A stretch of DNA of 64,000 nucleotides, from NCBI RefSeq assembly GCF_947495735.1, contig NZ_CANMAA010000005.1, positions 124,001 through 188,000 of the forward strand. The letters are read 5' to 3'. The stretch comes from an uncultured Pseudokineococcus sp. Lineage in GTDB: Bacteria; Actinomycetota; Actinomycetes; Actinomycetales; Quadrisphaeraceae. The translations under genes and the position numbers were made by a program. Positions 53,555 to 61,373 of this stretch are shown in pieces; within the stretch, counting starts at the first letter, position 1; every line of letters begins with the position of its first letter. Under the pieces are notes generated by a model. The model ran no database searches and was not told the origin of the DNA. It saw only the letters and a program-made list of their open reading frames with translations.

Positions 53555-55915
53555 GTGGTCCTGCCAGCGGCCGCCCGCGGGCGGCGACGTCCCCGCTCCG
53601 GGCGACGCCGTGCTGCCGAGGCGGCGCTGCTCGCCGTCCTCGCGGTCGCCTCGGTCGTCGCCTCGCTGCACCGCGGGCCGGAGGCCGGCGGCGCCTGGCC
53701 CGTCGTGGCCGCCCTCGCACCGCTGGCCGCCGTCGCGGTCGTCACCCGGCGCGCCCGGGGGACGACCGACGAGGGGCCCGTGTGGCGCTGGTACGCCGCG
53801 GGCGGCGCCGTCGTGGCCGTCGCGGGCGTCGCGGACGACGTGGTGCGCGGGCTCGGCGGCACGTCACCGGTGCCGCTCGTCGACCTCGGCGGGCTCGTGG
53901 GCGCCGGCCTGCTGTACCAGGGGCTGCTGCACTGGAACCGCTACCGCGGGCCCACCTCCGGACCCGGCGACTGGTTCAACGGCCTGAGCGCCGTCCTGTG
54001 CGTCGCCGCGCTCGGCACGCTCGCCCTCCGCTGGTCGGGCACCGAGCCGCCGGGCGACCTCCTCGCGACCCAGGTGTGGCTGCTGTCCCTGGCGGCGGCC
54101 GCGATGTTCGTGGCGACCCTGCCCACGGTGGCCTCGCTCGCCGGGCTCCTGGCCGACGTCCGCATCTGGGCGCTGACGACGGCCTCCGCCGTCGTCGTCG
54201 TGGCCGTCGCGGCGCGCCTGGTGCACCCCGGGTCGGAGGCGACGCTGACGCGCGCGGCGTGGACGGTGCTGCTGGTCGTCATCGCCCTCGCGAGCATCAC
54301 CACCCTGGGCGCCTCGTCCACGCCGAGGCCGGCGACGACCCGGGCGTCCACCGGCGGCGCGCTGTTCGTCCTGCTCTTCGCGCTCTCGCTGCTGGTCGTC
54401 TCCCGGGGGCGGCTCACCGCGGAGTCGCTGCTGCCCACCGCGTACGGGGTCCTGGCCGTCCTCGGCGTCGCCGCCCGCGCCGTGCACCTGGTCAGCGACC
54501 TCAGCCAGCTCGCGGTCCGCCGCCACGAGGCCCTCACCGACGACCTCACCGGGGCCGGCAACCGCCGGGGCCTGACCCGGCGCCTGGGCGAGGCCGCGCG
54601 CCAGCGGCGCACGGGGCTGCTGCTCGTGGACCTCGACCGGTTCAAGGAGGTCAACGACCGCTACGGCCACGCGGTCGGGGACGCGCTGCTGCAGGAGGTC
54701 GCCACCCGCTTCCGCGGCGTCCTCCCGGGCGACGCCTACCTGGCCCGCCCCGGCGGTGACGAGTTCGCCGTCGTCCTCGGCCCGCGCTCCGCCGCCTCCG
54801 CGCACGAGGTGGCTACCGCCGTGGCCCGGGCCCTCGCCCGACCCGTCATCGTCGGGGAGCGGCGCCTGCAGGTCGGCGGCAGCATCGGCGTGGCCGGCGG
54901 CAGCCGGGGAGAGGACGTGCCCGGGGAGGAGCTGCTGCGCCGGGCCGACGTCGCCATGTACACGGCGAAGGCGGCGGGCGGCGGGATCAGCCGCTACGAC
55001 CCCGACCTCGACGCCGCCGCCCGCGAGAGCGCCCGCCTGCTGGAGGAGCTCCGGGCGCTGCTGTCCGAGGGGGAGGCCGCGGGCGCCGGCCGGCTCGTGG
55101 TGCACCACCAGGTGCAGCTCGACGCCGCGGGCGCCGTCGCGGGCACCGAGGCGCTCGTCCGCTGGGAGCACCCGCGCCGCGGCCTCGTGCCGCCCGACGC
55201 CTTCCTGCCCCTCGCGGAGCAGCACGGGCTCATGACGGGCGTCACGACGCTGGTGCTGCGCCGGGCGCTCGAGGACGCCGCGCGGTGGCGCGTCCCCGGG
55301 GCGCGGCTGCGCACCTCCGTCAACCTCTCCACCGGCTGCCTGTCCGACCCCTTCCTGCCCGACTTCGTCGACGAGGTCCTCGCGGCGACGGGCACGCCCG
55401 CGTCCTCGCTGGTGCTCGAGATCACGGAGACGACGCTGATGGCGGACCCGGAGCTGGCGGTGGAGGCCGCGCGCCGGCTCGTCGCCCGCGGCGTGCAGGT
55501 CAGCGTCGACGACTACGGCACCGGGTACTCCTCGCTCGCCTACCTGCAGGACCTCCCGGTCGCCGAGCTCAAGCTGGACCGGGCCTTCGCCGCGCGGGTC
55601 GTCGACGACGAGCGCACCGCGGCGATCGTCGGCGGCACGGTGGACCTGGCGCACCGCCTCGGGCTGCGGGTGGTCGCCGAGGGCGTCGAGGACGAGGCCA
55701 CGCTGGCGCGCCTGCGCGCGCTCGGCTGCGACGAGACGCAGGGGTACCTCCACGGGCGGCCCGTCCCGGCCGAGGAGGTCCCGGTCGCGCTGCTGGCCGG
55801 GCGCTCCGACGGGCCGGTGACGGGGTCTGGGACCGAGGCGTCCTCCTCGCCGCCCGCCGTGCCCGCGCAGTCCCGCGCCTCGACGTCGGAGCGCCGCGCG
55901 GCGTCCCGTCCCTGA
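53555..55915 (+). CDS. Membrane GGDEF-EAL bifunctional c-di-GMP protein
   Basis: DDLTGAGNRRGLTRRL...ARPGGDEFAVVL...GTEALVRWEHPRRGLVPPDAFLPLAEQHGLM...DDYGTGYSSLAYLQDLPVAELKLDRAF...EGVEDEATL. Confidence 0.95.
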   Translation: MVLPAAARGRRRPRSGRRRAAEAALLAVLAVASVVASLHRGPEAGGAWPVVAALAPLAAVAVVTRRARGTTDEGPVWRWYAAGGAVVAVAGVADDVVRGLGGTSPVPLVDLGGLVGAGLLYQGLLHWNRYRGPTSGPGDWFNGLSAVLCVAALGTLALRWSGTEPPGDLLATQVWLLSLAAAAMFVATLPTVASLAGLLADVRIWALTTASAVVVVAVAARLVHPGSEATLTRAAWTVLLVVIALASITTLGASSTPRPATTRASTGGALFVLLFALSLLVVSRGRLTAESLLPTAYGVLAVLGVAARAVHLVSDLSQLAVRRHEALTDDLTGAGNRRGLTRRLGEAARQRRTGLLLVDLDRFKEVNDRYGHAVGDALLQEVATRFRGVLPGDAYLARPGGDEFAVVLGPRSAASAHEVATAVARALARPVIVGERRLQVGGSIGVAGGSRGEDVPGEELLRRADVAMYTAKAAGGGISRYDPDLDAAARESARLLEELRALLSEGEAAGAGRLVVHHQVQLDAAGAVAGTEALVRWEHPRRGLVPPDAFLPLAEQHGLMTGVTTLVLRRALEDAARWRVPGARLRTSVNLSTGCLSDPFLPDFVDEVLAATGTPASSLVLEITETTLMADPELAVEAARRLVARGVQVSVDDYGTGYSSLAYLQDLPVAELKLDRAFAARVVDDERTAAIVGGTVDLAHRLGLRVVAEGVEDEATLARLRALGCDETQGYLHGRPVPAEEVPVALLAGRSDGPVTGSGTEASSSPPAVPAQSRASTSERRAASRP

Positions 55916-56111: not shown

Positions 56112-56413
56112 TCAGGAGACGGCGCGCACCCAGGATCGGTAGGCGGTGGGCGAGAGGCCCCCGGAGGAGCAGCTGCCGCGTCGCGACCCGGGATGGCGTA
56201 GACGACGAGGACGCCGGCGCGCCCGCCCGCCCTCGCCGCGCCGGTGCAGCGGGCGGCCTCCGCGCGGACGGAGCGCTCGTCCAGCCGGTCGCCGACCCGC
56301 AGCGACGTCGCGGGGGTCGCCGTGCGCAGCTCGAGCGCCCGCAGGGCCGGGTCGCTCCAGCGCTGGGCGTCCCGCAGCGCCCCTGCCGACCGGCGACCTG
56401 AGCACGACTTCAC
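56112..56413 (-). pseudogene. Possible degenerate AraC-type regulator remnant
   Basis: One - frame reads RWSDPALRALELRTATPATSLRVGD...; another ends GLSPTAYRSWVRAVS (AraC-like G.SP.AYR tail); no single intact frame. Confidence 0.3.
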
Positions 56414-56629
56414 CGCCGCCGTGCATCACGCAGAGTGAGCGCATCTGCCGCACCGAGGCGCCGATCAGGACCAGGTGCACGGCCCTCTCGTCGACGCTGG
56501 GTGAGCTGGGCTCGCTGCTCGCGCGCAGCGCGTCCTGGCGAGGTGACGCGCAGTCGTGTTTCAGTGGGTCCTCACACGCACGCAGGGGTCAGCGCCGATC
56601 ACCTCCCACCACGTCCACCGGGAGATCCG

Positions 56630-58447
56630 TTGACCGACGCCGACGAGGCACCGCCCGGCCTGGCCGCCGGCGCGATCGACTACGAGCCGTACACCCGGCT
56701 CGCCGGCCCGCTCACGGAGCCGCCGGAGGGCGACTACGTCGTCGAGCACGTCAACCTCATCGCGCGCGACCGGCGCCGCGTCGGCGCCTACGTGATGCTC
56801 GCCGCCGCGCTGGTGTTCGAGGTGGTCTTCCTCGTGTGGCTGCTCAACCCGAGCCACCTCCCCACGCGCACCGGGGACTGGACCTGGTACCTGTCGATGG
56901 GGCTCGTCGCGTCGATCGGCCTCATCGAGACGATGCGGCTGGTCAACGTGGCCACGCTCGTGCGCGCCACGGTCTCGAGCGCGGACCCGGTGCCCGTGCG
57001 TCCCGAGGCCGGGCACCGCGTCGCCTTCATCACGACCATCGTGCCGGGCAAGGAGCCCGTGGAGATGGCGGAGAAGACGCTCGCCGCGGCGCGCGACGTC
57101 CGCTACGACGGCGTCCTCGACGTCTGGCTGCTCGACGAGGGCGACGACGACGAGGTCAGGGCGATGTGCGCGCGCCTCGGCGTCCACCACTTCAGCCGCA
57201 AGGGCGTCGACGAGTGGAACCAGCCCTCGGGCCGCAACAAGCGCAAGACCAAGCACGGAAACTACAACGCCTGGCTCGACGCCCACGGCGACGACTACGA
57301 CTTCTGGGTCTCGGTCGACACCGACCACGTCCCGCGGCCGGAGCTCGTCGAGCGCCTGCTCGGCTACTTCCGCGACCCCGACGTCGCCTTCGTCGTCGCC
57401 CCGCAGGTCTACGGCAACGACGACGACTTCATCACCAGGGCCGCGGAGTCCCAGCAGTACCTGTTCCACTCGGTCCTGCAGCGCGCCGGCAACCGCTGGG
57501 GCTGCCCCATGTTCGTGGGCACCAACAACGCCGTCCGCATCTCCGCGCTGCGCGACATCGACGGGCTCGCCGACTCCATCACCGAGGACGCCGCGACGTC
57601 GCTGGTGTGGCACACGCGCGACAACCCCGCGACGGGGCGCCGGTGGAAGTCGGTCTACACGCCCGACGTGCTGGCCGTCGGCGAGGGCCCGGCCTCCTGG
57701 TCGGACTACTTCACCCAGCAGAACCGGTGGGCCCGCGGCACCAACGAGGTGATGCTCCGCTCCTTCCACCGCTTCGCCCCGCACCTGGGCTGGGGACGTC
57801 GCCTGCACTACGCGCTGCTCATGAGCTACTACCCCTCCGCGGCGCTCTCGTGGGTGCTCGGCTCGTTCAACGTGGCGATCTACTTGGTCACCGGCACGGG
57901 CGGCGTCGTCGTCGCGGCGAACCTGTGGCTGATGCTCTACGTCAACGCCGCGGTCCTGCAGGTGGCCATCTACTTCTGGAACCGCCGCTACAACGTCTCG
58001 CCGCACGAGGAGGAGGGCAGCTCCGGCGCCCTCGGCATGCTCGTGTCGGTCCTGTCGGCGCCGATGTACGTCGTCGCCCTCGTCGACGCGGCCCGTGGCC
58101 GGGACGTGCCCTTCGCCGTCACCCCCAAGGGCTCGGACTCCGCGGGCGACCAGTGGGCCGTCTTCCGCAAGAACCTCACCTGGGGCGTGCTGCTGCTCGT
58201 CTGCTTCGCCGTGTCCCTGGTCCTCGGCCACGACTCCGCGGCGATGCGCACCTGGGCGCTGCTGGCCATCACGACCAGCTTCCTGCCGGTCGTCATCTGG
58301 CAGCTCGGGCTGCTGCGGGAGCGCCTCCGGCGCCCCGACGCCGCGCCCGCCCCGATCCCCGTGCAGCGCCGCGCCGCCGCCGGCAGCAGTCCCGCCGGCA
58401 GCCGCGCCACCGCCACCGCCTCGAGCACCCTGGAGCCCACCTCGTGA
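56630..58447 (+). CDS. cslA: Processive GT2, cellulose-synthase-like (CslA-like)
   Basis: VWLLDEGDDDEV, SVDTDHVPRPELVERLLGYF (DxD), ITEDAATSLVWH (TED), QQNRWARGTNEVM (QxxRW), C-terminal TM. TTG start with GGAGAT upstream. Confidence 0.85.
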   Translation: MTDADEAPPGLAAGAIDYEPYTRLAGPLTEPPEGDYVVEHVNLIARDRRRVGAYVMLAAALVFEVVFLVWLLNPSHLPTRTGDWTWYLSMGLVASIGLIETMRLVNVATLVRATVSSADPVPVRPEAGHRVAFITTIVPGKEPVEMAEKTLAAARDVRYDGVLDVWLLDEGDDDEVRAMCARLGVHHFSRKGVDEWNQPSGRNKRKTKHGNYNAWLDAHGDDYDFWVSVDTDHVPRPELVERLLGYFRDPDVAFVVAPQVYGNDDDFITRAAESQQYLFHSVLQRAGNRWGCPMFVGTNNAVRISALRDIDGLADSITEDAATSLVWHTRDNPATGRRWKSVYTPDVLAVGEGPASWSDYFTQQNRWARGTNEVMLRSFHRFAPHLGWGRRLHYALLMSYYPSAALSWVLGSFNVAIYLVTGTGGVVVAANLWLMLYVNAAVLQVAIYFWNRRYNVSPHEEEGSSGALGMLVSVLSAPMYVVALVDAARGRDVPFAVTPKGSDSAGDQWAVFRKNLTWGVLLLVCFAVSLVLGHDSAAMRTWALLAITTSFLPVVIWQLGLLRERLRRPDAAPAPIPVQRRAAAGSSPAGSRATATASSTLEPTS

Positions 58448-60333
58448 AGCGCGCCACCCTCCTGAAGACCCGCAACCGGGCGCTCGTGGTGTGCGCCGCC
58501 GGGCTGGTCGTCGCCGTCAACGCCCAGCCGGCCACCGCCGGCGCCGGCGCCCTGCGCGTCCTGTGGGTCGAGTCGCGGTCGGACTACCGCGCGGCCCACG
58601 GCGCGTGGGAGACGGTGGAGCTGCCTGCGGACCTGCACCTCGACGTCGTCTCCGCGACGCTGCTGCCCACGGGCGAGGTCCTCATCGTCTCCGACGCGGA
58701 AGACACGGCCGGGGCGCCCACGACGGTGCTGTGGGACCCCGTCACCGAGGTCGCCGCGGAGGTCGAGACGCCCGAGGGCCTGCTCGGCGGCGGCCAGGTC
58801 CTGCTGCCGGACGGGGACCTCCTCGTCGCGGGAGGGACGGCGCACCGCGAGGTCCTGGCCGAGGACGTCGTCCGCGCCGCCGGCGTCGTGGCGCTCGTCG
58901 CCGACGCGACCGCTGCGCGGGCCACCGAGGTCGTCGAGGGCACGGTCCTCGTCGACGAGAGCACCGGGCTCGCCTACCGGACCACCGAGACCGTCACCGT
59001 GCTCCCCGCGGCGGGAGCGGCGGAGGTCGGCCCGGTGACGGACGTCTGGGTCGAGGCGGTCGAGGAGGGTCCGGACGCCGTCCTCGAGGGCGAGGTGCAC
59101 CGCCTGCGCCCCGAGGGCCAGGAGGCGGCCGGCGTCTCCGGGCGGGCGGACGCCCTCACCCTCGCCAAGCAGGAGAACCGCGGGCTCGACGCCGCCCACG
59201 TGTTCGACGTCGAGGCGGAGGCCTACCGGCCCGCCGCGGACCTGACCACGGGCCGCTGGCGCCCGACGCTCGTCCCGACGGCGGGGGGCGACGTCCTCGC
59301 CGTCTCCGGGCTCGACGAGCACGGCGCCCTCCTCGACCAGGGCACGGGGACGACCGAGGTCCTCGACGTCGAGACCGGCACGTGGTCGGCGCGCCCCGAC
59401 CTCGGCCGCGCCTTCCCGACCTCGCCGTCGCTGTTCACCGGCATGACCGGCGAGGTCCTCTACTCCGGCTCCAGCGCGGGCCACGGCCCCGTCGACCGGA
59501 TGCGCACCCCCGGCGTCTGGGACCTGGCCGACGACTCGTTCGAGGAGATCCCCGGTCTGCGGGACCCGGACATGACCGAGACGTCGTCCTCGGTGCTGCT
59601 GCCCCCGGCCCAGGACCAGAGGGTGCTCGTCGCCGGCGGCGGGAGCGCCGGGGACGCCGAGGGCTCCACGGACCGGATGGACGTCGTCGACTTCGCCGCC
59701 CGGACGACATCCCCCGCCCCCGACCTGCCCGCCGCCGCCCGGTACGTGTCCTCCGTCGTCCTGCCCTCGGACGAGGTGCTGCTCACCGGGGGCTCGGGCG
59801 ACTACCGCGGCCGCGGCGGGAGCGACGTGCTCGCGGCGACCCTCTACGACGCCGCCACCGGGGAGACGACGGAGGCCGCCCCGCCGCGCGTCGGCCGCAA
59901 CCACCGGTCGCAGGCGCTCCTGCTGCCGGACGGCCGCGTCCTGACCGTCGGCTCGTCCCCCCTGTACGGCGACCCCGAGGGGGAGTCGGCGGGCACCGCC
60001 GAGCAGCGCCTGGAGATCTACTCCCCGCCCTACCTCTTCACCTCCGAGGAGCGCCCGGTGCTCGGCGCGGCCGCGCAGGAGCTGGAGCTGGAGCGAGGCA
60101 CGACGCAGGAGGTCCCCGTCACGGGCGACGTCGCGGCGGCCCGCCTCGTGCGCCCCGCCGCCTCCGGGCAGGCCGAGCAGCGCTCGGTCGAGCTGGGCGC
60201 CGAGGTCGTCGGCGGCGGGGTGCGGCTGACCGTGCCCGCGAGCGCGGCCCTGACCCCGAGCGGCTGGTACCTGCTGTTCGTCGTCGGCGAGGACGGGACG
60301 CCGTCCGAGGGCCGCTGGGTGCGCGTGCCGTGA
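58444..60333 (+). CDS. Galactose-oxidase-like (GlxA-type kelch + DUF1929) protein, catalytic residues apparently lost
   Basis: VLLPDGDLLVAGG, GRWRPTLVPTAGGDVLAVSGLDEHG, GRNHRSQALLLPDGRVLTVGSSP, EIYSPPYLF, EQRSVEL; TM-like N-terminus. Confidence 0.85.
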   Translation: MKRATLLKTRNRALVVCAAGLVVAVNAQPATAGAGALRVLWVESRSDYRAAHGAWETVELPADLHLDVVSATLLPTGEVLIVSDAEDTAGAPTTVLWDPVTEVAAEVETPEGLLGGGQVLLPDGDLLVAGGTAHREVLAEDVVRAAGVVALVADATAARATEVVEGTVLVDESTGLAYRTTETVTVLPAAGAAEVGPVTDVWVEAVEEGPDAVLEGEVHRLRPEGQEAAGVSGRADALTLAKQENRGLDAAHVFDVEAEAYRPAADLTTGRWRPTLVPTAGGDVLAVSGLDEHGALLDQGTGTTEVLDVETGTWSARPDLGRAFPTSPSLFTGMTGEVLYSGSSAGHGPVDRMRTPGVWDLADDSFEEIPGLRDPDMTETSSSVLLPPAQDQRVLVAGGGSAGDAEGSTDRMDVVDFAARTTSPAPDLPAAARYVSSVVLPSDEVLLTGGSGDYRGRGGSDVLAATLYDAATGETTEAAPPRVGRNHRSQALLLPDGRVLTVGSSPLYGDPEGESAGTAEQRLEIYSPPYLFTSEERPVLGAAAQELELERGTTQEVPVTGDVAAARLVRPAASGQAEQRSVELGAEVVGGGVRLTVPASAALTPSGWYLLFVVGEDGTPSEGRWVRVP

Positions 60334-61373
60334 GCGGGGCCCTGCGGGGCGCCCGTCCCGCGCGCACGCGGCCGGTCGTCCTCGGCGTGCTCTGCGCCGG
60401 CGCCGTCTCGGCCCTCGCGGCCTGCTCCGCGGTCGGGGGGCCGGCCGGCACCGAGGCCTCCTCCGGCAGCGCGCTGGCGGGGTCGACGTTCTACCTCGAC
60501 CCCGCCGGTCCCGCGCCGGCGCAGGTCGAGGCGTGGCGCGGGGAGGGCCGCGACGCCGACGCCGCCGACCTGGCGCCGCTGGCGGAGCAGCCCGTCGCCA
60601 CGTGGTTCTCCGGCCAGCAGGAGGACCCCTTCCTGGCCGCGCAGGAGCTGACGACGGCCGCCGAGGCGGCCGGCGAGGTGCCGGTGCTCGTCGCCTACAA
60701 CCTCCCCGACCGCGACTGCGGCTCCTACTCCGCGGGGGGCGCCGCGGACGCCGACGCCTGGTTCTCCTGGCTCGGGTCGCTGGCCGCGGGCCTGGAGGAC
60801 CGCCCGGCCGTCGTCGTGCTGGAGCCGGACGCCGTCGCCCACGCGCTGCAGGGCTGCTCCGGGGAGTCCGCGCAGGAGCGGTTCCGGATGCTCGCCGCGG
60901 GCGTGGACCTCCTCCAGGAGCAGGAGGGCGCCCGGGTCTACGTGGACGCCGGCCACTCCGGCTGGCTCGAGGACCTCGACGAGCTGGCCGCCGCGCTGCG
61001 CGCCAGCGGCGTCGGGCAGGCCGACGGCTTCGCGCTCAACACCTCGAACTTCCGGACGACGGAGGACTCCCTCGCCTACGGCGAGCGGCTGTCCTCCCGG
61101 CTCGGCGGAGCGCGCTTCGTCGTCGACACCGGCCGCAACGGGGCCGGGCCCTCGGGCGCCCCCGAGGGCAGCGCGGACGACTGGTGCAACCCGGCCGGCC
61201 GCGCGATCGGCGCCGCCCCCACCGCCGACGTCGACAGCCCGCACGCCGACGCCCTGCTGTGGGTCAAGCAGCCCGGGCACTCCGACGGCGCCTGCCGCCC
61301 GGGCGAGCCCGAGGCCGGCACCTGGTGGCCCGAGCAGGCCCTCGACCTGGCGCGCCGCGGCGCGGGCGCCTGA
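60330..61373 (+). CDS. GH6 endoglucanase-like lipoprotein (CslZ-like)
   Basis: LVAYNLPDRDCGSYSAGG, PAVVVLEPDAVA, FVVDTGRNGAG, LWVKQPGHSDGAC; VSALAACS lipobox. Confidence 0.93.
   Translation: MSGALRGARPARTRPVVLGVLCAGAVSALAACSAVGGPAGTEASSGSALAGSTFYLDPAGPAPAQVEAWRGEGRDADAADLAPLAEQPVATWFSGQQEDPFLAAQELTTAAEAAGEVPVLVAYNLPDRDCGSYSAGGAADADAWFSWLGSLAAGLEDRPAVVVLEPDAVAHALQGCSGESAQERFRMLAAGVDLLQEQEGARVYVDAGHSGWLEDLDELAAALRASGVGQADGFALNTSNFRTTEDSLAYGERLSSRLGGARFVVDTGRNGAGPSGAPEGSADDWCNPAGRAIGAAPTADVDSPHADALLWVKQPGHSDGACRPGEPEAGTWWPEQALDLARRGAGA

Follow-up and report, generated by a model that had tools for sequence, protein, structure and literature searches.

The locus described here touches the question of what a Gram-positive cellulose synthase requires a copper radical oxidase for. 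In Streptomyces lividans, UDP-glucose is not turned over by CslA or GlxA singly, whereas the two co-purified as a complex make cellulose; CslA depends on GlxA for its activity in vitro, and c-di-GMP is needed for full activity of the complex (PMC11022532). In Streptomyces, deleting glxA removes body and chemistry together; a copper-free natural GlxA beside intact CslA and GH6 separates them. We analysed a window (the whole stretch of 64,000 nucleotides) from an uncultured Pseudokineococcus sp., in which the initial annotation had recognised a GlxA-like protein that appeared to have lost all of its copper and radical residues. The gene lies between those of a cellulose synthase and a GH6 enzyme, with the following layout:

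56435..58447, plus strand: cslA-like GT2 cellulose synthase ORF (Pfam Glyco_trans_2_3, partial TIGR03030 CelA), 74% identical to the same-genus orthologue in genome G001, homology to which begins near 56680
58444..58447, plus strand: GTGA overlap of the cslA stop and glxA start (translational coupling), read from the sequence; GTGA also occurs at this junction in G001 and in other relatives of the order
58444..60333, plus strand: glxA orthologue lacking the copper/radical site; it encodes 629 aa, starts with GTG and is present once in the genome
58477..58539, plus strand: GlxA residues 12-32, the hydrophobic stretch of the N-terminal membrane helix (hydropathy; helix 2-44 in the structural model), containing the sole cysteine of the protein (C17, by Cys count)
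58651..58707, plus strand: blade-1 strand and loop of GlxA, residues 70-88, where invariant positions are changed (H71 to S, AGSGN to SDAED) and the loop is shortened
60330..61373, plus strand: GH6 endoglucanase-like gene (PF01341) in the cslZ position, with catalytic motifs kept and a GTGA overlap with the glxA stop

Both flanking enzymes retain their catalytic motifs, as had been proposed from the sequence (DEGD, VDTD, ITED and QQNRW in CslA; YNLPDRDC, EPD and SDG in GH6). Upstream of the operon, a GGDEF-EAL protein is encoded at 53555-55915 (+); G001 has a divergent GH6-CBM60 gene upstream of cslA in its place. Two or three GH6 genes are found around cslA-glxA in relatives L046, L047, L050, L051 and L052, and one was seen in the window. 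Because of the very high GC (GC3 98-99%), long spurious overlapping ORFs occur on both strands (e.g. 58095-61373 and 56146-60333) and may mislead ORF-based annotation.

The motif stretches on which the initial claim was built are present exactly in the translation of ORF 58444-60333 (LLGGGQVLLPDG, RWRPTLV, RNHRSQALLLPDGR and RPAASGQAEQRSVEL). Among solved structures, the nearest is that of S. lividans GlxA (4unm), which aligns end to end with residues 45-629 (HMMER/phmmer, E 1e-114), and the NCBIfam GlxA profile NF052501 matches residues 3-629 (profile 4-645 of 645, 574 bits, E 4e-172, HMMER). Judged by position and full-length homology, the ORF is a GlxA orthologue. Relative to 4unm, whose residues are numbered by counting the chain with the cross-link cysteine as 121, all five copper and radical residues are replaced (Cys121 by Gly115, Tyr289 by Arg273, Tyr501 by His487, His502 by Arg488 and His589 by Gln576). 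These replacements agree between two independent alignment methods (HMMER and MAFFT), and since both HMMER alignments are full-length, the motif alignment is not offset, as it had been feared it might prove. The sites and their surroundings, all placed by alignment, are:

58786..58788, plus strand: Gly115 (GGC), replacing the cross-link Cys121 (TGC in G001)
58795..58797, plus strand: Gln118, replacing His124, which is not a ligand; some ligand-intact homologues also have Gln
59257..59262, plus strand: Trp272, kept and equivalent to the second-shell Trp288, and Arg273, replacing the cross-link Tyr289
59902..59907, plus strand: His487-Arg488, replacing the axial Tyr501 and the ligand His502
60166..60171, plus strand: Gly575-Gln576, replacing Thr588 and the ligand His589, followed by a 3-residue deletion

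As the only cysteine of the protein lies within the membrane helix, the ectodomain has none, and the Cys-Tyr thioether cofactor cannot form there. In blade 1, the AGSGN...F stretch is likewise destroyed (SDAED) and reduced in length, in a region whose equivalent probably lines the substrate pocket in galactose oxidase. From this observed loss of residues we infer that the protein should be without radical-oxidase activity. It also falls short of the NCBIfam equivalog cut-off for radical copper oxidase GlxA (574 against 800 bits) and, given that it lacks the defining features of copper radical oxidases as well, annotation as such an oxidase is unsuitable.

Two alternatives bear directly on these observations. 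The substitute residues could bind copper or another metal, leaving an oxidase of another type, and His487 is indeed a new histidine at the position of the axial tyrosine. We consider this highly improbable, as a galactose-oxidase-type Cys-Tyr cofactor is impossible in an ectodomain without cysteine, and both tyrosines and both ligand histidines are replaced, with Arg488 and Gln576 standing at the histidine positions. The other alternative, a sequencing, assembly or alignment artefact, is of negligible probability: we found no point in its support, the changes are distributed over four distinct stretches of a single open frame and have further changes around them, the two alignment methods concur, and the gene sits within a contig of 239 kb, where the syntenic operon is otherwise complete.

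In order to place the loss among relatives, homologues were gathered from whole genomes of the genus (4 genomes), the family (13), samples of the order (396), class (395) and phylum (396), and the family of G150 (12), together with the best 80 of 460 related loci in a named genome collection, which include Kineococcus, Geodermatophilus, Modestobacter, Blastococcus, Streptomyces, Actinoplanes and others; the single window protein used as a query against that collection gave no matches. After removal of duplicates, C, Y, Y, H and H occupy the five sites in 151/151 other distinct homologues, and the window protein is the sole exception, at all five, which is much more than chance could yield. The departure extends beyond the ligands: 19 of the 87 columns that are invariant among 117 other full-length GlxA-type sequences differ in the window protein, including the five sites, their neighbours D118, F120, H124, T588 and T591, and blade-1 positions H71 and A84 to N88. 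When the sequences of a smaller set were left out one at a time, the others showed 0-9 changed invariants, against 23/106 for the window protein.

Since the cslA-adjacent GlxA family of this clade had been singled out as informative, it should be said that the loss proved real in the window and that no clade shares it: no group of copper-free GlxA was found in the genus, the family, the order, class and phylum samples, the family of G150 or the best 80 of the 460 loci, and the same-genus syntenic orthologue in G001 retains all five residues at 52% identity to the window protein. Nor was a natural copper-free member found in the openly accessible literature on GlxA and AA5 enzymes. The copper-free natural state is so far that of one genome, not of a clade.

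The G001 neighbourhood is the same as that of the window (SulP-type transporter, cslA, glxA, GH6, alpha-amylase), and the window glxA, being at the same locus, is the true orthologue and not a spare copy. In the tree, the two GlxA proteins are sisters with full support (end branches of 1.28 for the window and 0.69 for G001). The window genome has a single GlxA and a single CslA, and no backup GlxA was found elsewhere in it (assembly 96.7% complete). The sister relationship, the synteny and the single copy together indicate that the standard locus itself suffered the loss, following the divergence from G001 and without a backup in the assembly. The locus itself is patchy, with 3/13 genomes of the window's family and 4/12 of that of G150 (Kineococcus) carrying it, a pattern suggestive of frequent loss or transfer. 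Within the same genus, synthase and glycan hydrolase are also paired differently: G002 carries a CslA-like GT2 without GlxA, 45% identical to the window CslA (L069:3672-5600), directly followed by a GH26-like gene (L069:5611-6549).

The scaffold appears to have been kept, as initially proposed. An AlphaFold2 model built from 41 sequences has a pLDDT of 85 and a pTM of 0.83, and its pLDDT drops below 50 only at residues 87-89, which belong to the remodelled loop of blade 1. Its top Foldseek match is 4unm (E 5e-60, TM 0.77/0.81, 37% identity), with galactose oxidases next (E about 1e-25). As the underlying alignment consists of ligand-intact relatives, an intact predicted fold is partly expected and is supportive only. 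On model and sequence together, the protein is a putative pseudoenzyme, in which the predicted fold of the enzyme family is kept and the catalytic residues are lost.

Whether such a protein is still used is addressed by the rates of change within the operon. Identity between the window and G001 is about 70-74% for CslA, 60% for GH6 and 52% for GlxA, and in relative-rate counts CslA and GH6 are not faster in the window than in G001, whereas GlxA is. With G150 as the outgroup, GlxA shows 97 unique changes in the window against 58 in G001 (chi-square 9.8); other outgroups give weaker values (0.2-2.7). Positions otherwise invariant are changed in the window at 4/155 in CslA, 2/83 in GH6 and 33/157 in GlxA. 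Regional counts, summed over seven outgroups that are not mutually independent, place the excess of window-unique over G001-unique changes in blade 1 (156/49) and, weakly, in the C-terminal domain (111/82); the helix (28/31), the barrel (83/88) and the other kelch blades (108/114 and 97/93) show none. Blade 1 holds the cysteine and the pocket loop, and the C-terminal domain the last histidine, so that both regions with excess change carry active-site residues. This pattern fits, short of proof for one genome whose closest relative is at about 52% identity, a loss targeted at the active site of a protein that would still be in use.

A gene under relaxed selection and on its way to being lost, whose active site decayed first and whose stops and frameshifts are yet to come, is an unlikely alternative. 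GlxA is the sole accelerated gene in the operon, it is wholly absent from two other species of the genus, and the state is known from one genome only, all of which would suit decay. However, the acceleration is regional, with four of six regions no faster than in the sister, and 124/157 invariant positions are kept. The frame is open, GC3 (0.986) is uniform throughout the gene, and each of its junctions is a GTGA overlap; a stop would arise from about 2% of single-base changes, yet there is neither stop nor frameshift, and codon-position composition is normal in each 315-base segment. The pN/pS values (0.32/0.37 for window-G001, against 0.35/0.40 for the ligand-intact pair G001-G150) are uninformative on maintenance because of the GC3 of 98-99%. 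Region-specific rates, the open frame and the operon coupling would favour maintenance by selection after the loss, in this one genome and without a close relative sharing it.

The replacements themselves also raise the possibility that the copper pocket was rebuilt as a charged, non-catalytic site (Arg273, Arg488 and His487, with the acidic SDAED loop), in a predicted ligand-binding or glycan-guiding subunit that might bind some ligand non-catalytically (an anionic glycan, phosphate or other), or in which the charges might form a salt-bridge lock. Arg or His accounts for 3/5 replacements, two of the ligand changes each take two base substitutions from the codons of the sister G001 (TAC to CGC and CAC to CGG), and the blade-1 loop is remodelled as well as shortened. 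Nevertheless, the new residues are known from a single sequence, and high GC by itself favours Arg, Gly and acidic codons, and we consider a rebuilt pocket quite improbable.

A lead on a parallel loss of copper handling was rejected. A DyP peroxidase (PF04261) occurs in G001 but not in G000, and might have pointed to co-loss of copper delivery; the G001 gene adjoins an FTR1/EfeU-like ORF (recognised by eye) and probably encodes an EfeB-like protein rather than DtpA. Both Sco (PF02630) and PCuAC/ECuC (PF04314) are also missing from G001 and from most ligand-intact relatives. LPMO (PF03067) is absent from 10/10 genomes of the order examined and is uninformative.

We think it probable that the window GlxA is a natural pseudo-oxidase kept as a non-catalytic, membrane-anchored partner of CslA, the part played towards CslA being presumed from its homologue. 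The pseudo-oxidase suggested at the outset is supported by the missing copper-radical site, the intact predicted fold and the coupled operon with intact partners. Such a protein, with no mononuclear copper ligands and no Cys-Tyr cofactor, would have no radical-oxidase activity; from its extracytoplasmic position it would bind and activate CslA and hold it in an active state. The lineage would have dropped the oxidation step, whatever its substrate, and retained the subunit role, the glucan synthase and the GH6 trimming enzyme.

Of the two roles offered at the outset, that of a scaffold or accessory subunit of CslA draws independent support from the biochemistry of S. lividans (PMC11022532); a glycan-binding subunit is a candidate role. 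There, GlxA is bound to CslA via its membrane helix and N-terminal part, the complex contains both cross-linked and uncross-linked GlxA, and a truncated GlxA (12-261) retains CslA binding and shows about 40% activity (PMC11022532); as the complex takes uncross-linked GlxA and the truncated form still works, a body without the chemistry could serve. On the other hand, S. lividans sco and dtpA mutants, which have immature GlxA only, fail to form pellets and to grow aerially unless supplied with copper (PMC4736821), so that copper maturation does count in Streptomyces, for the final glucan or for morphology, and this argues against a kept pseudo-oxidase. If glucan is made by the CslA beside this copper-free GlxA, synthesis can do without the oxidase step and GlxA is foremost a synthase subunit.

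Among known systems, the closest is GlxA of S. lividans and S. coelicolor (SCO2837; PDB 4unm, 5lqi, 5lxz), the partner of CslA, which is alike in its cslA/GH6 position and shares the membrane helix, blade 1, inserted barrel, kelch propeller, E-set domain and second-shell Trp; the window protein differs at the five copper and radical sites, in the pocket loop of blade 1 and in three residues next to the last histidine ligand. With galactose oxidase and other AA5 copper radical oxidases it has the kelch propeller and E-set domain in common (Foldseek E about 1e-25, 17-20% identity), and it lacks their Cys-Tyr cofactor, axial tyrosine and histidine ligands. The likeness to BcsB, the accessory subunit of the Gram-negative BcsA, lies in the proposed role only, that of a membrane-anchored extracytoplasmic partner needed by the synthase, as GlxA has no homology to BcsB (PMC11022532). 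The Tyr-Cys cross-link is also absent from the S. lividans C121G laboratory variant and from apo-GlxA (PMC4736821); whereas those states result from a single change made in the laboratory or from copper starvation, in the window protein all five residues have been replaced in nature.
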